Below the pieces are notes generated by a model that saw only the letters and a list, made by a program, of their open reading frames with translations, had not been told where the DNA came from and did no database searches. Shown here piece after piece: positions 1,788-19,953 of a stretch of DNA of 21,478 bases; within the stretch, counting starts at the first letter, position 1; each line of letters opens with the position of its first letter. Both the position numbers and the translations under genes were made by a program. The stretch is from a virus, in IMG/VR virus record IMGVR_UViG_3300002132_000004, positions 1 through 21,478 of that record; one strand, given 5' to 3'.

Positions 1788-2585
1788 TTAAGGAAAAGAT
1801 TTCATTACCTCGGACTCAACTGCAAAAAGTTCAGTTTTAGATGTATTGGTATTCTCAATATCAAATACGCAGTAGTGTCCCAACACACCGTGAGACTCAG
1901 CAATTGAGTTCTTTATGTACAAGAAGTAAGCGTCCTGAATAGAGATAGGTGTTGTTAGTGGTATAGTGGTATCAATAACAATCTGATTAACTCCGGCCCT
2001 TAGATTAATGTTAACTGCGGTAACCTGCCCTGCCAAGATAGGCTGACTATAGTTAGGTGGTAGTGCAAAGTATAGCATATCACCGATACTTATTATGTTA
2101 CCAACCTCTACATTTAGCGGGTAGTTTACTGTAGCAACCCCTGTAGTTATAACAACAGAAGAGCTGTTTCCTATACCATTTAAAGAGCGAAGTGCGTACT
2201 CGTTAGCCCCTGCAGGCACAGTTCCTGTGTTCCTAACAAATGCATACCAAGACTGCTCCTTCTTCTCAAACCAAGCATCATCAATGTACCCTGTGTCCTG
2301 TATGTCGGTCCTCATATTAGCCTCCCAAGAATCATCACCCTCTAAGTTTAATGTCTTAAATAGCTTGTTCTCAAGTGGCAAATCATTAAATACCCCCTGC
2401 AGAGTTGAGCTGTACTGCACACCATAAAAGTTATTCCTAACAGGATTTACATTATGACGGTAAAGATTACCCCCGTTAAACGTATAAAAGTAATTATTCA
2501 TCCCAATCATCCAATCGGGATTGTAGGAGTAGAAGGATGGAAATCCCTGTACTCCGTTATCGTATGTTAATGTATAATTTGCCAT
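1788..2585 (-). CDS. Conserved virion structural protein of crAss-like/Bacteroidota phages
   Basis: 265 residues starting MANYTLTYDNGVQGFPSFYS. The N-terminal 110 residues carry the pattern FPSFYSYNPDWMIGMNNYFY, then FNGGNLYRHN, NNFYGVQY and LENKLFKTLNLEGDDSW, which I recall from structural proteins of Bacteroidota phages. Residues about 140-225 form a separate beta-rich module (VEVGNIISIGDMLYFAL ... QVTAVN ... QIVIDT). The C-terminus ends in a short acidic segment. The gene starts 6 bases after the preceding stop codon in the tail block, so a tail or collar component is likely. Its exact place in the virion is unknown. No signal peptide or enzyme motif is seen. Confidence 0.72.
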   Translation of the reverse strand: MANYTLTYDNGVQGFPSFYSYNPDWMIGMNNYFYTFNGGNLYRHNVNPVRNNFYGVQYSSTLQGVFNDLPLENKLFKTLNLEGDDSWEANMRTDIQDTGYIDDAWFEKKEQSWYAFVRNTGTVPAGANEYALRSLNGIGNSSSVVITTGVATVNYPLNVEVGNIISIGDMLYFALPPNYSQPILAGQVTAVNINLRAGVNQIVIDTTIPLTTPISIQDAYFLYIKNSIAESHGVLGHYCVFDIENTNTSKTELFAVESEVMKSFP

Positions 2586-2591
2586 TCTTTA

Positions 2592-3521
2592 TTAAGGACA
2601 AGTTCCTAGTGCAATAATAACCCCATTCTCAACTTGCATAAATTGATTAGATGCTCCGTATCCATAAAAACCATCAGATAATATAAACTGACCATTAGTG
2701 TCTGAAAATACCCAATCGTATAAAGATGGAGTTCCAAACCCTACACCGTTAGGTGCATTGTAATAGACCTCAGTCTTTGTAGCTGAACAAGCTGCTCCTA
2801 TTGATCCAAATAAACTAGATGAGGAGTAACCACTAAGCTGCACAGGGCAGGCTATTGCTATGTCCCAAGCTGTAGTCTCGCAAGGTCCAACAATAGATAA
2901 GTTTACAATTGAAGGAGATGGAGTAACCTTAGGTATAACCATCAAGCAATACCCCGGAGGTGTTGGATCTGAAAGAGAAAGATCGCCTGCTGCAATAAAT
3001 AAAGACTGAGTATTTCCTGTTGCAGTAAACGCAGCACCATCGTACAAGAACTCTTCTATTGCAGGGTATGTTGCTCCTGATATAATCTGAGAACAGCTTG
3101 CAGGATCTGTATCATCCCTACCTAAAAATGTATGCGAAGTAGGAGATGTAGATGCGTGGTATCCATCTACCGTAGAGCTTAGCTTATTGTAAGTAATTCC
3201 GTTAAACGTAGCACGTATCCCATCGGGCTGAGATGCAGGGTTAAACCTAATTAATATAGCACCCGTGTCCAACTCAGTTTCGCCTGTCTCTAAGTTTATA
3301 AGGTATATACCTTGACCTCCTGACGCTCCTATTTCTTCACCACAAGGAGTGCCGCAAGTGCCGCAAGTCTGAGATGGAAGTAGAAGGCAGCTAACCTGCT
3401 CTCTTGACGTTACCCCATCTGAATAGAATCCATCAGGGGCACAAATAGTTAGCTCTGCATCTGTAAATATTGCAGTTGAGTTTGATAAAGTATTGCCGTC
3501 TATGTAGTATATATCTGCCAT
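2592..3521 (-). CDS. Probable tail-associated virion protein with Cys-rich N-terminal motif
   Basis: 309 residues starting MADIYYIDGNTLSNSTAIFT. After a short N-terminal repeat-like segment (CAPDGFYSDGVTSREQ, residues 27-42) comes a cysteine cluster C45-x7-C53-x2-C56-x3-C60. A beta-rich region of about 70-200 includes DTGAILIRFNPASQPDGI and FNGITYNKL. The C-terminus again has SDGFYGYGASNQFMQVENGV and ends in GTCP. The rest is rich in Ser, Thr, Gly, Tyr and Asn, as in exposed tail proteins. It lies 9 bases downstream of the 1559-residue stabilization protein. The N-terminal pattern (D-GFYSDG...REQV...LLP...C..C) is one I recall from Bacteroidota phage and prophage structural proteins. A receptor-binding or tail-tip role is plausible but unproven. 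Confidence 0.68.
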   Translation of the reverse strand: MADIYYIDGNTLSNSTAIFTDAELTICAPDGFYSDGVTSREQVSCLLLPSQTCGTCGTPCGEEIGASGGQGIYLINLETGETELDTGAILIRFNPASQPDGIRATFNGITYNKLSSTVDGYHASTSPTSHTFLGRDDTDPASCSQIISGATYPAIEEFLYDGAAFTATGNTQSLFIAAGDLSLSDPTPPGYCLMVIPKVTPSPSIVNLSIVGPCETTAWDIAIACPVQLSGYSSSSLFGSIGAACSATKTEVYYNAPNGVGFGTPSLYDWVFSDTNGQFILSDGFYGYGASNQFMQVENGVIIALGTCP

Positions 3522-3530
3522 TTTATTTTA

Positions 3531-6500
3531 TTAAAAGCTTGGACAATTTATTTCGTCTCCGCATTCAAATGTATTCGGTACTTGTATTGTAGCCGTTGGA
3601 GGTATTATTGCATTGCTTACAATTGTTCCACATCTGTCTGCTCCAAATCCTCCTCCTGCACCCTCTTTATACTTAACAACATCACCTATGTTAAATAAGA
3701 ATGGAGTCTGTAGTGCAAAGAAGCTATCTCCTGTTATACAGTCCTGTATTACAAATGTAGCAGGATTTCCCTCACCCTGACAATCACAGCAGGCAGTAGT
3801 TCTAGAGTCAGCATCGTAGCATAGCTGTATAGCTGTACTGTTTCTGTAGTCCCAAACTAAATACAAGTAGCTTCCTGTAGACGGCATAGTAAACTGAGAG
3901 TAGTATGCAGTGTTACCGTTTATTGGCGGGTTAATTGGAGTAGCCTCCGTTGTTGCCGCAAGAAGGCTCTGTATATCAGCCGCATTATTCTCGTACAACG
4001 TATTTGTTCTTAGGTACTTAAAGTTATCCTCAAACTGATTGAATACAAAGTTGTCAGGAACAATAGTGTTGTTGAACATTGTAACCGTTGCACCATTTGC
4101 GGGGATTACACCGCCACCCTGTAGTCCTGTTATAGTTTGGTACTGAGATACTATAGGATTGGTATAAAACTGTGCAAACTGTATGTTCTGACTATGTAGC
4201 GGTGAGTTAAAAGTACCATCAGACCATCTGTATTGGTTTGTAGTAAACAACCCAACCTCATTGCTGCTTGTCACAGTTATTAAAAATATTGTGACAGAAT
4301 CAGCGTCAGGGCAGTTTATAATTAACCCTAGAGTTACAAGACCTGTAGAGGTTATTGTTAGGTCTACAGTAGACACGTTAACTACAGATTTAGGGAACGT
4401 AAGAGTTCCGCTTGCGGTAACATTACCTGTGGTATAGGTTATACCATTGTAAACAGCTGTTATGTTAAATGTACCGCTAACATCAGATACGATGTAGTCA
4501 ATGTTTACGTCTCCGACTAGATCACCTAAGTTAAAGCAAGACTCAAAGCTTGATTCGCTTGATACATTTAATGAGACAGTTGTGTTGCAGCTGTCACATT
4601 CAATGTCTTGAGGCAGCGGAACTTCGTTAGACGCTAACACGTACTCGTTCATATATGGATCAAATCCACCTAGTTTTTGAGTTGTAAACGACTCGTTAAA
4701 TAGATCACGAAACCAAGTCCTCATACCATTCTGAGATATCACAGAAAGCTGATCGTTGTTTCTCTCAGTGCCTGTAAGCTTAATAACAGCACCTCTTTTT
4801 GCGTCTGTAAAGTACTTATCAGGACCCCACTGAACAAAACTTTCAGGGTTGCTTGATATACCATACTCCTCAATACGAGCTACTTGATTAGCTAGTATCT
4901 CAGGCGATGCCATCAAAGCACTGCCTCCTCCTGCATCCGTAAGTATGTTTTTGCCTTGAACTACATACGATATCTTATCTTCCTGTAGTGTCAATACGTC
5001 AGTCTCTCGACCAAATAATTTATTTATCGGACCAAATGACTGTTCGCAGGCTTTATAGTTAAGTAAACCAAGGTTAAACTCGTTAAGTTTATTTATGTTC
5101 GACTCTTCGTTGTAGATACCACTATAAGTGATATCAGAGAATCTTCTTGATTCCTTGTACTCTATAGTAGTTGTTATGTAGGCTCTATTACCCAACGACA
5201 ATCTCTTACCTGTTATAGAGTCCTGTATCTTATAGCTCTCTACGCCATTACCAAATGAGTAGCAGTTGTAGAAGTCAGTGTTTATAATAGCCGGGGTGTT
5301 AGATGCAAATACTTGACTTTGGTCTCCTTCGTTACCCAAGTGCTCTCCTGCGTTATTTATATTGTAAACCTCAGATGACTCGTACCAAAGGTTTGGTGCA
5401 GCATCAAGCGGATCTGTTTCAAAAACAACAGTGCTATTTGCACGTACAACTGTAATCCTTGCTTTATTATTTGTCCTAGTTTTTTTACCTCCGTACCCTT
5501 GTATCCCTGCAAAAAGCAAATAAGTATTATTATTAGGAATAACACTCAGCTTAGAAAACTGAAAATTAACTTCTCCTGAACATTCAAAATCTATATCCCC
5601 GGACGTTATAACCATAGTAGGCCAATAGGTTGCTACAGGCTCAGGTGCACTACAGGTGGCTTCTCTTACCACAAAGTCAGCGTTTAGTGTGCCTGCTACA
5701 TTGTCTCCATCCCACCATTCTTTAAAGCTATTGTAGTCCTTAGATGACGTAAAATCATTTTTATAGATATACGTTCTCCCTTCTATATTACATCCCCTGC
5801 CTTCCCTATCGCTCTCAAACTCTAATGTAATTTTTGATCCTGACGGTATAGGAAGATCTATGTACATAGTAGGATTATTTGGGTCTTGAACGCTAACAGG
5901 AATACTTATACCACCACATAAGAAAGAACTATCTTTTGTGTTACTTTTTAATTCTCCCGAATCAAGAACTGTTGGTAACCCATCGGGGCTCTCTATAGTT
6001 GTACTAAAGTTATTTGCCCTTAGCTTCATATACACACCTGCAGGTACAGCTAACTCTACACCGCTGCCATCGACAGGCTTTGGACTTAAAAAGTCAGCCT
6101 GCTGAGCTTCTTTCTCTAAAACAGTTGTGTACGTACAAGTATTTAACGGACCTACTGTGTCCTTCTTAACTATCAACTCATCTCCAAGCTGAATTTTTTG
6201 TGAGTTCTGACCCTCAAGTAAAAAGTAGTCAGCTCCTGATGTAGGGTCTCTAAAAAAGAACTGAGAGTATATTGTCTCGTATGTATCTCTATCAGGCTTT
6301 ATTACGAACTTATACCTTTCTGCCCAATAAGGAGCAATCTGTCCTGTTGGTATAGTTATGTTTATTTTATTCTGAAATTCAGATGCCGAGCAAGGAACGT
6401 GTACTGCATTGTTAGGGCTAACTAGAGCTGTAGATGATCTATTAAACTCATCCATATAAACAATACCAACCTCATACCCCCTGTTGCTGTGTAAGCTCGT

Positions 6501-8210
6501 AGGGCTTCCCACTTCAGAATAAAGTGCTGCTGCAAAAGTAATCTCGTAGTAAGAGTAGACACTTCTTGTAATCGGATTGTCTACATACCTAATGGCAGGT
6601 AGCTGAAGTCCTATTTTAGTAGACGCAGGAGATGAAAATATCTGTATAGCTTGACCCGCTGCAGAGATACCACTCTCATACTTAGTAAATGTAACATTTC
6701 CGGGATCTACAAGAGTTTGTTCTATTGAGCAGTTAAATCTATCTGTAAGGGTTAATCCATCACAAGAGTTTTGAACTGTTTGTATTGTGCTTACCGTCCC
6801 TATTTTTTCTACAAAATCAGGGTCTATAGCAAGCTCGTAAACGCTATTAAATGATTTTTGCAGTACATATGGAAATGATATAAGTGTATTTCCTTGTGTT
6901 TCTGTAGGTAATGGTACGTCACCTGAGTAAAGAGAGTTGCTGTACTGAATCTCTATAGTTAACAGTGCACCTGATACTAAATCTAAATTAGCAAAATCAA
7001 GGTAAATAACTGAAGAGCCTATCGTTTGAAGGCTATCCCAACTATATGTTCCTGTATCTAAGTTGTAATCTAATTCAGTGCTTCCTACCTCATTGGTATC
7101 TAGCTTAGCTATATACTCCAAGCTAGTAGGACTACCTGAGCTGTCGACCATATCATAACCCTCAACGTAGTTGCCGTACATAAGCCTGTTACCCATCATA
7201 GTCTGAGCCTTAGCAAATCTAGGAACATTATCGTATAGCCTTAGTATCTCAGAGTCTGCTAGTATTGTAAATATCTTACTATTTTGGAATTGGAACGTGT
7301 AGTCAGTGTTGTCACCAAGACCCTCGTTCTTTTTGTTTATCTTCTCTATTATACGAATTGTAGGGAAGTCCATCTCCTTAAACAATAGATCTATTGCCTT
7401 TACAAGTGGTCCTCCTGAGTTATAAGTAACCTCAGCCATATTAGCTATACTCTGCATACCGCTGTTTAAAGCAGTAGCGAAGTCGTAGTTAAATGTATTT
7501 GGTAGAAAAGCAGGCTTGCTCCACTGAGATGTAGCTGAGTACTCACCATCATCGTATCTATACCTGTAGGCAAAGCATATGAACCTTTCCTCCAAGAAGT
7601 TGTCCTGAGTTGATGTAATTGTTGGTACAACAACCGGAGCTGCAACAGGTGGTTTCTTTATTACAAGTATCGACTCTGCTGAAAATTGGTCAACGCCTGC
7701 AGATGGATTAGCATAACCCTTAGTTACATTAATCTGCCTTGGGGCATTGTAGTCATCAGTCCAATACAATAGATCCTGCACTTTATCTACGCCTGTTATT
7801 ACATACGTAGGGTCAAAGTTCAGTGTTGTATTGCTTGTAGCACCGTCTCTAATACTTATCAGATGATACGTTAGTATCGTAGTCTTTATATCATATGATA
7901 ATACCAAATCAATCTTCCCTGTAGGAGATGATGGGTAGTTATTGTCGTGTACAAACCAATAAATAGTCTCGTTTGTGCCATCCTCAAAAGCACCTATGCA
8001 CCTTGCATCTGAGCTAAGTGGTATACCATTATAAATTAATGTAGTAAGAGGTAAATTTCCCTTAGCATTTTCTATAACACCAATCTCTGAGTTCTCAGTA
8101 GAACCCATACGTATATTAAGAGCATCAATGTACTCGCCATTAGGAACAAGTCGTTCATCAACGGACTTGTTCATTCTGCCTGCTATAAAATTCCTTGATA
8201 AATTCGCCAT
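3531..8210 (-). CDS. Tail stabilization ('muzzle'-type) protein of crAss-like phages
   Basis: 1559 residues, the largest gene here. The N-terminus (LSRNFIAGRMNKSVDERLVP, then NGEYIDALNIRMGSTENSEIG) is the signature I associate with the stabilization/muzzle protein of crAss-like phages, which forms the distal part of the short tail. Further matching segments are LLYWTDDYNAPRQINVTKGY (148-167), YRYRYDDGEYSATSQWSKP, NRLMYGNYVEGYD, the region with WAERYKFVIKPDRDTYETIY, and KACEQSFGPINKLFGRETDV. It is beta-rich throughout with no transmembrane segment. The last 90 residues form a Cys-containing tail (CCDCQGEG, a GDVVKYKEG segment, FECGDEINC) that may be a separate module. It begins 1 base after the stop codon of a ring-type protein, the position expected for this family. 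I am sure of the family type; equivalence to phiCrAss001 gp44 is inferred. Confidence 0.85.
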   Translation of the reverse strand: MANLSRNFIAGRMNKSVDERLVPNGEYIDALNIRMGSTENSEIGVIENAKGNLPLTTLIYNGIPLSSDARCIGAFEDGTNETIYWFVHDNNYPSSPTGKIDLVLSYDIKTTILTYHLISIRDGATSNTTLNFDPTYVITGVDKVQDLLYWTDDYNAPRQINVTKGYANPSAGVDQFSAESILVIKKPPVAAPVVVPTITSTQDNFLEERFICFAYRYRYDDGEYSATSQWSKPAFLPNTFNYDFATALNSGMQSIANMAEVTYNSGGPLVKAIDLLFKEMDFPTIRIIEKINKKNEGLGDNTDYTFQFQNSKIFTILADSEILRLYDNVPRFAKAQTMMGNRLMYGNYVEGYDMVDSSGSPTSLEYIAKLDTNEVGSTELDYNLDTGTYSWDSLQTIGSSVIYLDFANLDLVSGALLTIEIQYSNSLYSGDVPLPTETQGNTLISFPYVLQKSFNSVYELAIDPDFVEKIGTVSTIQTVQNSCDGLTLTDRFNCSIEQTLVDPGNVTFTKYESGISAAGQAIQIFSSPASTKIGLQLPAIRYVDNPITRSVYSYYEITFAAALYSEVGSPTSLHSNRGYEVGIVYMDEFNRSSTALVSPNNAVHVPCSASEFQNKINITIPTGQIAPYWAERYKFVIKPDRDTYETIYSQFFFRDPTSGADYFLLEGQNSQKIQLGDELIVKKDTVGPLNTCTYTTVLEKEAQQADFLSPKPVDGSGVELAVPAGVYMKLRANNFSTTIESPDGLPTVLDSGELKSNTKDSSFLCGGISIPVSVQDPNNPTMYIDLPIPSGSKITLEFESDREGRGCNIEGRTYIYKNDFTSSKDYNSFKEWWDGDNVAGTLNADFVVREATCSAPEPVATYWPTMVITSGDIDFECSGEVNFQFSKLSVIPNNNTYLLFAGIQGYGGKKTRTNNKARITVVRANSTVVFETDPLDAAPNLWYESSEVYNINNAGEHLGNEGDQSQVFASNTPAIINTDFYNCYSFGNGVESYKIQDSITGKRLSLGNRAYITTTIEYKESRRFSDITYSGIYNEESNINKLNEFNLGLLNYKACEQSFGPINKLFGRETDVLTLQEDKISYVVQGKNILTDAGGGSALMASPEILANQVARIEEYGISSNPESFVQWGPDKYFTDAKRGAVIKLTGTERNNDQLSVISQNGMRTWFRDLFNESFTTQKLGGFDPYMNEYVLASNEVPLPQDIECDSCNTTVSLNVSSESSFESCFNLGDLVGDVNIDYIVSDVSGTFNITAVYNGITYTTGNVTASGTLTFPKSVVNVSTVDLTITSTGLVTLGLIINCPDADSVTIFLITVTSSNEVGLFTTNQYRWSDGTFNSPLHSQNIQFAQFYTNPIVSQYQTITGLQGGGVIPANGATVTMFNNTIVPDNFVFNQFEDNFKYLRTNTLYENNAADIQSLLAATTEATPINPPINGNTAYYSQFTMPSTGSYLYLVWDYRNSTAIQLCYDADSRTTACCDCQGEGNPATFVIQDCITGDSFFALQTPFLFNIGDVVKYKEGAGGGFGADRCGTIVSNAIIPPTATIQVPNTFECGDEINCPSF

Positions 8211-8211
8211 A

Positions 8212-9135
8212 TTATTTTAGCCATTTATCCTGTCCTCTGATATTCATTAATAGTCTACCGGGGTGGATATTGCTGATTCTTATTTTTGCATTGTTGTACA
8301 AAGCTCTTCTTCTTTTCTTAGCTCTATTGACTATGTATTCCTGAACACCAAACTTAGACCCTAAGATCGCGTACTCAATAGCTGCGTACATATAATCTTC
8401 AAACATCTTATTTACAGAGATACTGCTATCGTCACCATTCTCCATACCATCAGATGTATACTCAAGTACAACTAACTGTCCCTGCGTCCCTGAGCTAAAG
8501 TTTATAACACCACCCTTCTTGTTTATACTAAAGGTTGGGTTTGCGTTAGCTGTCTCTGTGTTAAGGCCAAACCTAGCACCAATATCCCTTGTAAAGTACC
8601 AATTACCATTATCGTTGTAGCCGTTGTAGCCATTAAACGGTGAATTACTATTTAAGTATATTGTCGGCTGTATAGTAAAAATTCTATCGTAGTCTAGCTT
8701 AGAAAACTGAGGAGATAGTGCATTACCATCCTGATCAAATAATATCTTACCTGAATTGTCCTGCAGATATGCTTTAGACCAATTAGTCTGTATGTTTTCG
8801 CTTAGAGGGTAAAGTATCCCTTGGTTCTCAATAGATATCCTAACCCAATTCACATAGTCAGACGGAAGAACATACCTTAGCTGATCATCAATGTTAAGCT
8901 CTAGTATCTTTATCTCCTTAAACGCATCGTAGTTAAGCTCCTGTATCGCTCTTTTTGCGTGGAACAAAACCTTAAACCTATCCTCGTTATTAATGAGGCT
9001 GTGGTTTCCTGCGTACATTAACATAAAGTTGTTTACTATGTCATACAACGATACGTACTGATACGATCCCCAATTTTTATCTTCAGGATTAGAACCCCCG
9101 TTAGCGTAGTATTGATACTGTGATATATACCCCAT
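8212..9135 (-). CDS. Ring/adaptor-type tail protein (crAss-like R1-type)
   Basis: 307 residues. After a Tyr/Asn-rich N-terminus, a helical segment LFHAKRAIQELNYDAFKEIK (57-76) leads into a beta segment with LPSDYVNWVRISIENQG (90-106), then YLQDNSGKILFDQDGN. The middle has a loop rich in Asn/Gly/Tyr (160-190). The C-terminal part is helical and ends basic (AKKRRRALYNNAKIRISN). Helical core plus beta insertion is the plan of connector/adaptor proteins (P22 gp4-like), and the AKR-IQELNYD and LPSDYV motifs are ones I recall from crAss-like structural proteins. It lies directly upstream of the stabilization protein, as ring protein R1 does in crAss-like phages. The match to R1 rests on order and remembered motifs. 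Confidence 0.75.
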   Translation of the reverse strand: MGYISQYQYYANGGSNPEDKNWGSYQYVSLYDIVNNFMLMYAGNHSLINNEDRFKVLFHAKRAIQELNYDAFKEIKILELNIDDQLRYVLPSDYVNWVRISIENQGILYPLSENIQTNWSKAYLQDNSGKILFDQDGNALSPQFSKLDYDRIFTIQPTIYLNSNSPFNGYNGYNDNGNWYFTRDIGARFGLNTETANANPTFSINKKGGVINFSSGTQGQLVVLEYTSDGMENGDDSSISVNKMFEDYMYAAIEYAILGSKFGVQEYIVNRAKKRRRALYNNAKIRISNIHPGRLLMNIRGQDKWLK

Positions 9136-9141
9136 TTTCTA

Positions 9142-10125
9142 TTATTGTTGTGATTGATTATCTATTTGCTCAAGGCCCTGCCCAAACTGAACTGCTGATA
9201 GCTCTCTAATAGACATACCCGCGTACTGAAGAATTTTATTAACTAAGTCAGGCTCGCAATCAAGCGGAAGCTCAAAGTCTTGGTAGTCGGGCTGCGACTG
9301 CGAAAATGCAGGCTCTCCACTAACTAGCGTAATATACGTCCACTTAGGATCTTTAGGGTATCTTATGTACTGAGACAACACCTGACCTACTTTATTTACT
9401 GTAGATGGGAATGCAGTTAGTATGATACCCTCCTGCGTATAGGCAGGGTACGTAAGGTTAGGCTTAGTCAACAAAGAGTTGTTGAGCATAGTTATTTTGC
9501 TGTGCGAAACCTTCTCTGCTTCCTCTAGCGAGTCCCTGTATATGTTGTAGTTTATGCCAATTGAATTGAACGGAGTTGAGGTTACGTTACTTGCTGTAGT
9601 GTATAGTGATGTCTCAGAGTTAACAAATGTTATCGTAACGTACTGCGTAATGCCTCCACTTACTAACGCAACAACATCACCGGCCTGCACTCCATCTGTA
9701 ATAAACGCAGAACTCAAATCTATTATCTCTTTCCCACTCGGATCTACGTCTGTGGTTGTACCGTCTACTATGAAATTATCATATACAAGAACCTTGTTTA
9801 ATAGGTAGTAGTCATCACCTGTTGTAGTTGGAGATGGCAGGTAGTATACGTTACTTATTGTTGGAGGAGTATTGCTTAAACTTAATGGATTAGATACTGA
9901 GAACATCTCAATAAGCTCTTCCATACTTTTGCGTATATCAGCATACCCTGTACCTGATTGGCGGGCATTCTCTTTATTAATCTGATAATTGTACTGATAG
10001 AAATAAGTCTCAAATAAATCTAATTGTGCCTGCTTGGAAAATAAATTAAAATCCGATGGCGATATATATCCGTAGTTATTCTTGTTCAGTACAGACAGAA
10101 CTGTGTTTCTAACTGAGTTGATCAT
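9142..10125 (-). CDS. Second ring/adaptor-type tail protein with inserted beta module
   Basis: 327 residues. The helical N-terminus (INSVRNTVLSVLNKNNYGYI, FNLFSKQAQLDLFETYFYQY) includes an RQSGTGYADIRKSMEELIEM segment. Residues about 118-200 are a beta-rich insert with the pattern FITDGVQAGDVVALVSGG ... YVTITFVNSETSLYTTA. The remainder contains SQYIRYPKDPKWTYITL and DCEPDLVNKILQYAGMSIRE, typical of head-tail connector ring proteins that pack near the portal. It is the first gene after a terminator-promoter pair and is followed after 6 bases by the other ring-type gene, so the two probably assemble together with the 1559-residue protein. Whether it corresponds to ring protein R2, R3 or R4 of crAss-like phages cannot be decided here. 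Confidence 0.72.
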   Translation of the reverse strand: MINSVRNTVLSVLNKNNYGYISPSDFNLFSKQAQLDLFETYFYQYNYQINKENARQSGTGYADIRKSMEELIEMFSVSNPLSLSNTPPTISNVYYLPSPTTTGDDYYLLNKVLVYDNFIVDGTTTDVDPSGKEIIDLSSAFITDGVQAGDVVALVSGGITQYVTITFVNSETSLYTTASNVTSTPFNSIGINYNIYRDSLEEAEKVSHSKITMLNNSLLTKPNLTYPAYTQEGIILTAFPSTVNKVGQVLSQYIRYPKDPKWTYITLVSGEPAFSQSQPDYQDFELPLDCEPDLVNKILQYAGMSIRELSAVQFGQGLEQIDNQSQQ

Positions 10126-11026: not shown

Positions 11027-12472
11027 CTAGTTTTGGAACAAGAAGAAGTTGTTAGCACCTAAAGTACAAACTGCTCTTTCAGAAAGGAAGTTAACCTCCA
11101 TTGCATCAAGATCAGAAGTTTCAGCACCACCCGCAGAACCTGTAATCCAAGTTTTGTAGCGTCTATCTTCAGTTTCAGAAGCACGGTATCTAACGTGTAA
11201 GAAAGGTCTCTTAGCGTTTTTACCAAGGATCTGATCGTAAACAGTAGTAGAACCGGCAGGAACTAATAAACCACTTACTTTACCTGAACCTGCAGAAGTA
11301 GGCAATCCACCTCTCATTGTAGGATCGTTTAGGTACTTCCAATCAGATTTGTAGAAATCGTAACCTCTACGGAATCCTGTGAAACCTAAGTTAAGAGCCA
11401 TCTCTTTATCGTTTTCGAATAGACCGTAAGACGTTCCACCTGCACCGTAAGAGTTTTGAGCTGCTAACATATCATCAATGCTAAAGCTGAATGAACGATC
11501 AACAAAGATTACGTTCTCTTCGATTGAACCTTGCTTATCAAGACGAGATACGATAGTATCAAAATCAGCAAGAGTAGTTGGATAACCACCACCCCATACG
11601 TTCCCACGCTCGTTAACAACATAGAAGATACCTTCAGACCCCTTGTTACCAATTTGATCGTTAACTCCTGTCAATGCAGCAACACCTGAGTTCGCTTCAG
11701 CAGGAACAGCTTCGATCATTGCAGTCTCCAAGTAATCGTCAAAACGTAGACGAGTTTCGTGCTCAGACTTCATATACCAAAGGTAACCATTAGCACCATT
11801 TTCAGTAGTAACCTCTACCCATCCGATTTGAGCCATATCAGAACCTGATACTGCATACTTATCTTTGATGATGATTGGAGAGTTTTCGAAGATCTCATCA
11901 CTAGCTTCTAAAGAACCTTGCATTCCGTTAGTTCCTTTTTTAAACTCAGAACCGTAGATAAATACTGTCCATTTGTTTCCTGCAGATGCGTTAGTAATAC
12001 CAAACTCATTGTAGAATGCTACGGCAAAAGTTTTTGCAGAAGTGTTCACTGCTGTAACAATTGCTTTGTAACTAGCTCCACCTGTATTAAGTGTGAACAT
12101 AACAGTTTGACCTACTCTTATAGCTATAGAACCTTCTCCTGAAGGACCGCCTCCTGAAGGGATCAAAACATCATTTACAGTAAATGTAGCTATGTCAGAG
12201 TTAGCAAGAACAGATGTAGTACAATCAACATACTTAGTATGAAGACGACCCTGCTCAGCCCATTTGATAAGGTCAGAGTTAGAAGGCATCTCAGCTCCTA
12301 CCATACGTAAGAAAGATGCGATTGTTCTGTTACCATATCTCTCAAATTCTTTCTCATAAGTATCAGGAAGATACTGATTCAAGAAATCAAAGTTGGTAAT
12401 GTAGTTTGTTTTTAGTGGGACTTGTTGTGCACTTGGCTGCAACGCATATCCCGGAATTGCTTGTACGGACAT
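11027..12472 (-). CDS. Major capsid protein (HK97-fold, crAss-like type)
   Basis: 481 residues starting MSVQAIPGYALQPSAQQVPL. The N-terminal region (residues 28-70) has NFLxxYLP-type helices: FDFLNQYLPDTYEKEFERYG and IASFLRMVGAEMPSNSDLIK. Residues about 75-175 are a beta-rich insert (RVGQTVMFTLNTGG...AIVTAVN). The rest matches the HK97-type MCP I recall from crAss-like phages: YLETAMIEAVPA, IFYVVNERGNVWGGGYPT, ENVIFVDRSFSFSIDDMLAA, GFTGFRRGYDFYKSDWKYLN, RPFLHVRYRAS, DRRYKTWITGSAGGA and the C-terminal LSERAVCTLGANNFFLFQN. It follows the probable scaffold gene by 25 bases of nearly pure A/T, giving an A-rich leader directly before the ATG, as efficient Bacteroidota genes often have, and it is followed by a strong terminator. 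Both fit a very highly expressed gene. Confidence 0.92.
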   Translation of the reverse strand: MSVQAIPGYALQPSAQQVPLKTNYITNFDFLNQYLPDTYEKEFERYGNRTIASFLRMVGAEMPSNSDLIKWAEQGRLHTKYVDCTTSVLANSDIATFTVNDVLIPSGGGPSGEGSIAIRVGQTVMFTLNTGGASYKAIVTAVNTSAKTFAVAFYNEFGITNASAGNKWTVFIYGSEFKKGTNGMQGSLEASDEIFENSPIIIKDKYAVSGSDMAQIGWVEVTTENGANGYLWYMKSEHETRLRFDDYLETAMIEAVPAEANSGVAALTGVNDQIGNKGSEGIFYVVNERGNVWGGGYPTTLADFDTIVSRLDKQGSIEENVIFVDRSFSFSIDDMLAAQNSYGAGGTSYGLFENDKEMALNLGFTGFRRGYDFYKSDWKYLNDPTMRGGLPTSAGSGKVSGLLVPAGSTTVYDQILGKNAKRPFLHVRYRASETEDRRYKTWITGSAGGAETSDLDAMEVNFLSERAVCTLGANNFFLFQN

Positions 12473-19127: not shown

Positions 19128-19351
19128 TAAAAGTTTATATTATACTCAATCGATATAGGCACTGTTTCTGAGAACTCTTTCCAAAGTAGTACCTCATCAC
19201 TGTGCTCGATCCATATCTCTATTGAGTTTTTATTATTAAATTTGATTAAATGTATTTTATGCGTATTGCCCAAGACATCCTGCCCTACTATGTAGTGCAT
19301 AGCTCCTGACTTGTAATCAGGTCCTATTGATATCTTTCTAATTGCTCCCAT
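19127..19351 (-). CDS. Conserved small phage protein, unknown function
   Basis: 74 residues starting MGAIRKISIGPDYKSGAMHY, with VGQDVLGNTHKIHLIKFN, VLLWKEF and the C-terminal motif VPISIEYNINF. It looks like one small beta-rich domain with no membrane segment, signal peptide or enzyme motif. It overlaps its neighbours by single bases (TAATG junctions at both ends), so it is translated as part of the same unit. I recall relatives with the same two ends (MGAIRKISIGPDYK and PISIEYNINF) in marine phages, next to the Cpn10-like gene. No function can be proposed from sequence. Confidence 0.7.
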   Translation of the reverse strand: MGAIRKISIGPDYKSGAMHYIVGQDVLGNTHKIHLIKFNNKNSIEIWIEHSDEVLLWKEFSETVPISIEYNINF

Positions 19352-19953
19352 TATGAGAACTTAAATATTTGAATTTGAGCTGATGGAACATCATCCCAAG
19401 TACTTGAAGCAGTATGAGTATACATACCACCTTGGTTAACTCCCGAAGAGTCTCTTAGTATCTCCCAAGTAAGAACAGTTCCAACCTCAGTAATGTTTAT
19501 TATAGTAGTAGTCTCGTAAGGGAACATAATACCTATTGAACTTAAGTCAAACCCTTTAACTACACCTGCCTGAACGCCATCTATTAAAGCTCTGAATAAT
19601 AAAACAGAAACTCCTCCTGAAGAACCTTGTCTCTCAATATTACCAAAACCATTAAACAAGTACATACCTGTTTGGTTAAATGTAATATTACCTAATGCGT
19701 CAAGCATCACAGGGTCTGTTGCAGTATTCTGTGCAGCACCAAATGTTACTTGTAGTGGTGTGTCTAACACACTAGGGGCTTGATTTACCGTAGAAAAAGC
19801 ATACAAAACACTTGTAGCTGATGCGCTTACTAAGTTTAAAATACTTCCTACTGTGTAGTTCTTTGTTTTGCTTGAGTCTTCAGCGTCAGTTCCTATTAAC
19901 TTATCTGCTAACGTAACCGTAGCGTCTATTGGGTATGTGCTTATTATTGCCAT
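19351..19953 (-). CDS. Probable trimeric virion protein with C1q/TNF-like jelly roll
   Basis: 200 residues. The N-terminal 40 (ISTYPIDATVTLADKLIGTD, then TKNYTVGSILNLV) match a short segment I recall at the start of many Bacteroidota phage fibre-type proteins. After a linker of Ser/Ala/Val, residues about 58-200 look like a C1q/TNF-like domain: VTFGAA, LDALGNITFNQTGMYLFNGF, VSVLLFRALIDGVQAG, ETTTIINITEVGTVLTWEIL, and the final strand AQIQIFKFS, with the typical 'G-x-I-T-F-x-x-x-G-x-Y-x-F' run. Such domains form trimers that bind ligands at fibre tips. The gene lies between lysis and terminase genes, not tail genes, so a head fibre is as likely as a tail fibre. Fold assigned by eye; role inferred. 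Confidence 0.6.
   Translation of the reverse strand: MAIISTYPIDATVTLADKLIGTDAEDSSKTKNYTVGSILNLVSASATSVLYAFSTVNQAPSVLDTPLQVTFGAAQNTATDPVMLDALGNITFNQTGMYLFNGFGNIERQGSSGGVSVLLFRALIDGVQAGVVKGFDLSSIGIMFPYETTTIINITEVGTVLTWEILRDSSGVNQGGMYTHTASSTWDDVPSAQIQIFKFS

Follow-up and report, generated by a model that had tools for sequence, protein, structure and literature searches.

Gene content of the locus

The window, meaning the whole stretch of DNA analysed here (record IMGVR_UViG_3300002132_000004, 21,478 bases), is an entire viral contig whose main genes all lie on the minus strand. It is a block of virion genes akin to those of Bacteroidota phages (Elemovirus, Pervagoviridae and Pachyviridae), with crAss001 as a distant relative. 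The nearest named record is MW202828, with 72% identity in the capsid protein, followed by Maribacter phage Panino, Elemovirus and the Cellulophaga phages phi38:1 (Pervagoviridae) and phi13:2 (Pachyviridae); Callevirus (Pervagoviridae) and Baltivirus (Pachyviridae) are also among the nearest named records. The genes follow the order terminase, portal (phrog_6547), a 361-aa protein, capsid protein (phrog_13704), a 247-aa protein and two ring/adaptor-type proteins (phrog_14543 and phrog_13977), and continue with a 1559-aa muzzle-type protein (phrog_14478), a 309-aa protein, a 265-aa muzzle C-terminal piece and small tail genes. The terminase, on the minus strand like the rest, was assigned from its position and from comparison with MW202828. 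The features on which the analysis turns are the following.

11027..12472, minus strand: major capsid protein homologue, 481 aa (phrog_13704)
11951..12238, minus strand: capsid segment, residues 79-174, at the position of the crassvirus E-loop I-domain
9142..10125, minus strand: tail-ring type protein, 327 aa, with insert (phrog_14543, E 3.7e-29)
9526..9780, minus strand: optional insert, predicted beta barrel, ring residues 116-200, lacking in 33 of 54 relatives
8212..9135, minus strand: second ring/adaptor-type protein, 307 aa, without such an insert (phrog_13977, E 1.5e-50)
3534..3788, minus strand: end of the 1559-aa muzzle protein, cysteine-rich and variable, not counted as a module
1788..2585, minus strand: split-off muzzle C-terminal piece, 265 aa (Pfam crAss_MUZ_C, E 1.9e-17)
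1902..2180, minus strand: predicted barrel module, residues 136-228 of the 265-aa protein, extra relative to the crAss001 muzzle

Residues 1-323 of the ring protein match positions 4-228 of the 234-position phrog_14543 profile ('virion structural protein'), and the gene order around the ring gene is that of MW202828 and Elemovirus. Compared with the crAss001 ring protein gp34, the ring profile reaches an hhalign probability of 26%. The neighbouring 307-aa protein has a weak SU10_adaptor match (E 0.0033) and is 286-311 aa long in 170 complete homologues. The capsid protein is matched over residues 1-480 by a Cellulophaga phage Calle_1 protein annotated 'structural protein /major capsid protein'; its profile gave no sequence match to crAss001 gp32 (0.3%), and it sits in a different PHROG.

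Assignment of the 265-aa protein to the muzzle draws on three comparisons: it scores 63.9 bits against crAss_MUZ_C (PF25729), above the curated cut-off of 27; it matches residues 1200-1285 of crAss001 gp44 (profile match 87%; HMM 4.1e-11); and its fold aligns with the crAss001 muzzle 7qol_P at Z 9.1, over 129 residues between 21 and 262. The muzzle is thus encoded by two genes (1559 aa, 3531-8210; 265 aa, 1788-2585) with the 309-aa gene between them. It is likewise split in Maribacter phage Panino and is one chain in phi38:1 and Elemovirus; the muzzle end of phi13:2 had no match above threshold to the 265-aa protein. Homologues of the 309-aa gene (2592-3521) vary widely in length, most complete hits being 298-568 aa and a few being ORFs of muzzle size (1628 and 1821 aa).

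Two further observations concern other genes. The 200-aa protein at 19351-19953 (phrog_3614), which is close to the gene at the peptidase M15 place of MW202828, may belong to a fibre or a spike. In one related locus (L036:4064-6447) the portal reading frame is divided into two overlapping ORFs of 316 and 502 aa, perhaps through an assembly error.

An optional insert in the ring protein

The ring insert is optional, occupies a single site and has an empty counterpart in close relatives. Complete ring homologues are bimodal in length, mostly 225-262 aa or 310-353 aa, with two in between: L046 (289 aa) has the insert and lacks an N-terminal stretch in the alignment, and L058 (280 aa) is insert-free. 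We determined the frequency of the insert in loci found through the capsid protein (the best 80 of at least 594), a set that was therefore not chosen for ring state; 54 of the 80 have a complete ring gene, and the other 26 were left out of the count. Among these 54 the insert is present in 21 and absent from 33, so that its presence does vary among related phages at the ring site, in keeping with an earlier sequence-only reading that had suggested a mobile insert domain here. Four further sets, selected by their queries (three of them the best 80 of a longer list), were not used for this purpose, since selection by the query makes their insert frequencies meaningless.

Aligned with the filled site (...NKVLVY[85 aa]EEAEKV...), the empty site reads ...NKVLCYSAGNLLGEAEKV..., and the flanks match across the gap. 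The closest pair that differs in insert state, L138 with it and L052 without it, shares 80% identity in the ring core. The insert is also missing from the rings of phi38:1, phi13:2, Elemovirus and Panino, and none of 79 phage-collection records reaches 80% coverage of the ring query; MW202828 comes closest, at 75% in two pieces. Insert state has to change at least 10 times on the tree of the capsid protein, 7 times each on the trees of the ring core and the 307-aa ring protein and 11 times on that of the 247-aa protein; the changes forced by starred branches number 2, 2, 3 and 3, respectively. As shuffled labels need about 17 changes, the state is clustered yet has been switched repeatedly, by gain, loss or exchange, which change counts cannot separate. 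At 0.409, the GC content of the insert lies between those of its two flanks (0.351 and 0.431) and bears no foreign mark. Mean identity is lower in the insert than in the ring core (0.36 versus 0.66), as it is in the capsid segment (0.49 versus 0.82) and the muzzle-piece module (0.40 versus 0.60) relative to their cores. The window itself, locus L004, was omitted from these rate sets, as well as from the folding alignments and the barrel-tree sets.

Modelled alone with AlphaFold2 from 96 sequences, the insert reaches a mean pLDDT of 90.7, with core blocks at 94-98, and is predicted to be an independently folding small beta barrel set in a short loop that joins two conserved parts of the ring core. 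Foldseek against the PDB gave nothing strong (best E 0.047). By VIA, in which Z values of 7-9 may reflect a common arrangement only, the model matched at up to Z 8.7 over its residues 17-99, equivalent to ring residues 116-198. The closest solved phage folds (Z 7.3-8.7) are in a Solidus tailspike (24qj 389-471, Z 8.7), a VP1 capsid chain (9in6_M 64-147, Z 8.1), the lambda tail tip (8k35_A 489-565, Z 8.0) and a JBD30 baseplate protein (8rk3_b 479-558, Z 7.3). These differ from the present case in that their hosts are not ring proteins, and their identity to the insert is 8-12%. Many N-terminal barrels of F1/V1 ATPases match too (Z ~7-8), nearly always with model residues ~17-100. This barrel, which we take to be the 'HAS barrel' (PF09378), belongs to a cellular enzyme and gave no significant family match, PF09378 matching one of the 96 insert-family members at E 0.0058. 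The sequence-only reading had likened the segments to an SH3/KOW-type barrel. No SH3 or KOW family appears among Pfam matches of the window segments at E<=10; SH3, KOW and the crAss001 and P22 capsid I-domains are likewise absent among the 50 VIA matches listed, an absence that excludes nothing. With ATPase-type and phage barrels as the nearest folds listed for the model, an SH3/KOW nature is neither shown nor excluded.

Among predicted viral structures (best E 3.8e-4), most of the named top matches are proteins of tail tips and tail fibres, and many others are unnamed. Two tail-fibre PHROGs match members of the insert family: phrog_1980 matches 36 of the 96 at E<=0.1 (best 9.6e-9), and phrog_28473 has a best E of 2.1e-6. 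The window's own ring segment, searched alone against Pfam and PHROG, gave nothing firm (phrog_1980, E 0.0044). In the phage collection, tblastn with the window and L046 inserts, the L156 and L167 domains and the MW202828 barrel returned nothing beyond weak or self matches, the weak ones (E 0.3-0.8) being to the Escherichia phages EP-B-K_E2, N15 (tail fibre) and SaltyDalty. The barrel alone as a query against viral contigs yielded nothing confirmed, and a PDB sequence search with proteins and profiles found no relevant relative.

Predicted barrels in other virion proteins

We ran an HMM of the ring insert on 4,498 ORFs from the loci. Outside ring proteins it found a 156-aa protein of MW202828 (5.6e-14), a 184-aa protein of L156 (3.5e-10) and a 273-aa protein of L036 (8.8e-8). 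The MW202828 protein is the counterpart of elemo gp41 with an inserted barrel; elemo gp41 itself (88 aa, phrog_12296, annotated as a tail fiber protein) is the empty form. Across at least 118 phrog_12296-type proteins from two scans, the HMM matched all 83 long forms (4e-22 to 1e-10) and none of the 35 short ones. By these profile matches the ring insert and the barrel of the small protein belong to the same sequence family, and both have empty forms. They differ in host protein and gene position, and they fall mostly into separate sequence groups. The barrel-family proteins at L036:10436-11257 and L156:9360-9914 lie downstream of the 247-aa gene, that of L156 directly before the ring gene. 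Weaker matches were to the capsid protein of L055 (0.0014) and to a 562-aa protein in L023 and L024 (0.0029); the first, a direct link from the ring insert to the capsid segment, was rejected because reversed decoys reach 0.0032.

On single genomes the ring and small-protein sites vary separately. In the six genomes from which both genes were retrieved, two have the barrel at both sites, three, MW202828 included, have it in the small protein only, and one has it in the ring only. A poorly resolved barrel tree (81 columns) places ring and small-protein copies mostly apart, with five changes of host protein, one of them forced, against 47 for shuffled labels, which suggests an old division rather than recent hopping between the two proteins. 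With related viruses that have or lack the insert, and with the module also present in a small fibre protein, the module behaves as an interchangeable add-on.

The sequence-only reading had gone further, describing one layout in four segments, those of the ring, the capsid protein, the 265-aa protein and the end of the 1559-aa muzzle, and proposing a domain reused across the virion. All four ranges translate in frame to the residues it quoted. A regular expression for that layout, written post hoc and run on the 21 window proteins and 500 shuffles, matched at 4 places (ring 149, capsid protein 121, 265-aa protein 168, muzzle 1229) against 0.70 in shuffles, 4 of the 500 shuffles reaching 4; the claimed muzzle end was without a match. 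We also compared family profiles of the segments by hhalign with control windows of ~90 aa from eight window proteins. The top matches of the ring segment were the 265-aa protein (40%) and the capsid protein (22%), in register (128 comparisons); those of the capsid segment were the 265-aa protein (19%) and then the ring (122 comparisons). For the 265-aa segment, two muzzle windows (91-210) outranked the ring and capsid segments (130 comparisons). Absolute probabilities among the segments were at most ~40%. The muzzle end ranked 20th, 25th and 19th from the ring, capsid and 265-aa profiles, and its own profile found as best hits ring windows, weakly and over 17 residues (87 comparisons). Three of the four segments thus stand out as mutual top or near-top matches.

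The muzzle end was rejected as a fourth copy on these ranks among the controls and because its HMM, outside its own family, finds solely the cysteine-rich C-terminal ends of four p309-type proteins. It is filled in 57 of 101 alignment rows.

The muzzle-piece module is present in 76/76 relatives (74-103 aa) and in the one-piece muzzles of phi38:1 and Elemovirus. Its residues ~128-228 match F1/V1 ATPase barrels (Z 6.1-7.5) and JBD30 8rk3_b 479-559 (Z 7.1) by VIA, so that it shares with the ring insert both the F1/V1 barrels and the same JBD30 domain (479-558/559) as PDB neighbours; the models show it to be the same kind of barrel. The capsid segment, in turn, is present in 167/167 homologues (69-110 aa), and its strand pattern and motif persist in phi38:1 and phi13:2. 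As described in passages of PMC10172136, the crAss001 major capsid protein has a beta-barrel I-domain in its E-loop at 79-180 that is widespread in crassviruses, and parts of PMC9855967 report additional beta domains of a similar kind in models of capsid proteins from Crassvirales, Pachyviridae and Pervagoviridae. From its position and these papers, we infer that the capsid segment is an E-loop I-domain and probably the same kind of barrel: residues 75-175 of the window protein occupy the same range as the crassvirus domain, with no sequence match to gp32. The crassvirus I-domain resembles the ring insert, to go by the same passages (PMC10172136), in being a beta barrel within a loop of a virion protein, and differs in being fixed in the capsid family where the ring insert is optional.

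The proposal of a shared, mobile, reused module therefore survives in part. The likeness stands out from the controls, at low probabilities, in the profile ranks of the ring, capsid and 265-aa segments and does not extend to the muzzle end. Mobility applies to the ring, with its presence and absence, its empty sites and a second host protein; found in every relative examined, the capsid and muzzle-piece segments are instead fixed, integral parts of their families, contrary to the idea of a mobile insert. Reuse across one virion is borne out at fold level for the ring and muzzle piece, which match the same PDB barrels, is likely for the capsid segment from its position and motif, and was not upheld for the end of the 1559-aa protein. 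Common descent of the ring, capsid and muzzle-piece modules is possible.

The three may instead owe their likeness to the 'GD box', reportedly the subject of a 2009 paper by Alva, and to small-barrel geometry; each would then have arisen on its own, with mobility confined to the ring insert. We give this explanation slightly less than an even chance. GD-box motifs are described across cradle-loop barrels in part of the ECOD paper, profile probabilities do not exceed about 40% and decoys reach an E-value similar to that of the ring-capsid match; F1/V1-ATPase barrels, moreover, match about as well as those of phages. Against separate origins, each of the three segments has the others, in register, at or near the top of more than 120 comparisons, and the ring insert and muzzle module match the same domain of JBD30 8rk3_b.

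Possible position and role of the insert

Taking the evidence as a whole, we lean towards a reading in which ring residues 116-200 are an optional barrel insert, of a family shared with a small tail-fibre protein, that serves as an outer decoration. Passages of PMC10172136 describe the crAss001 tail barrel as a stack of ring proteins in 12-mers; the rings R1 and R2 carry the docking hubs for the fibres. If the ring protein here forms 12-subunit tail-barrel rings in the same way, each ring would gain up to twelve barrels from the insert. These barrels would not be needed to build the tube and, in what is the least certain step, would lie outside the tail as a variable decoration touching fibres, collar or cell surface. 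Surface exposure or protein contacts, which the sequence-only reading had also suggested for such modules, are plausible. Outside decoration is the simplest reading of the loop position, the tail-fibre kinship and the faster change of the insert relative to the core; the faster change of the modules may also reflect weak constraint instead of exposure.

Alternatively, the insert could be where tail fibres or hub proteins dock onto the ring, and not a free decoration. The docking hubs on crAss001 rings R1 and R2 (passages of PMC10172136) and the occurrence of the insert's domain family in tail-fibre-annotated families speak for this. We nonetheless think it unlikely: across the six genomes from which both genes were retrieved the ring and small-protein states are uncoupled, no partner gene came to light and the kinship of this ring to R1/R2 amounts to the 26% match to gp34. 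That the segment belongs integrally to the ring core, and was lost by the short relatives or missed in them by gene calling, is very improbable: change counts alone do not separate gain from loss and the insert is present in 21 of the 54 complete ring genes (best 80 of at least 594 capsid-scan loci), but the flanks align across the empty site, short forms occur in several phage families (phi38:1, phi13:2 and Elemovirus, for example), the phrog_14543 profile is only 234 positions long and the insert is predicted to fold alone.

Domains that may be present or absent are familiar from tail fibres and from the decoration of capsids. Domain shuffling in tail fibre, spike and baseplate proteins is described in part of PMC10684548; that portion on tail-protein mosaicism mentions no ring protein, and the domain seen here lies inside a protein of tail-barrel type. 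Barrels inserted into capsid and tail proteins of phages, like the shuffling of tail-protein domains, are already known. The crAss001 paper's passages on insertions (PMC10172136) mention none in a ring protein, and a narrow search of the open-access literature found no such insert in a crassvirus ring protein.

A broader version of the decoration reading, which we regard as tentative and rather doubtful, holds that one barrel lineage acts as a general add-on, old and fixed in the capsid E-loop and muzzle tip, switchable in the ring and small fibre protein, and switched independently at these last two. If it is true, head, tail barrel, tail tip and fibre would all be decorated with versions of the same module. 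What sets this case apart is an optional domain inside a ring protein, which is expected to be under tight assembly constraint. The natural insert-free relatives provide controls, so that a direct test of a decoration role in adsorption, fibre attachment or stability is possible. The case also shows how one module family is distributed over different virion proteins within a single phage group.
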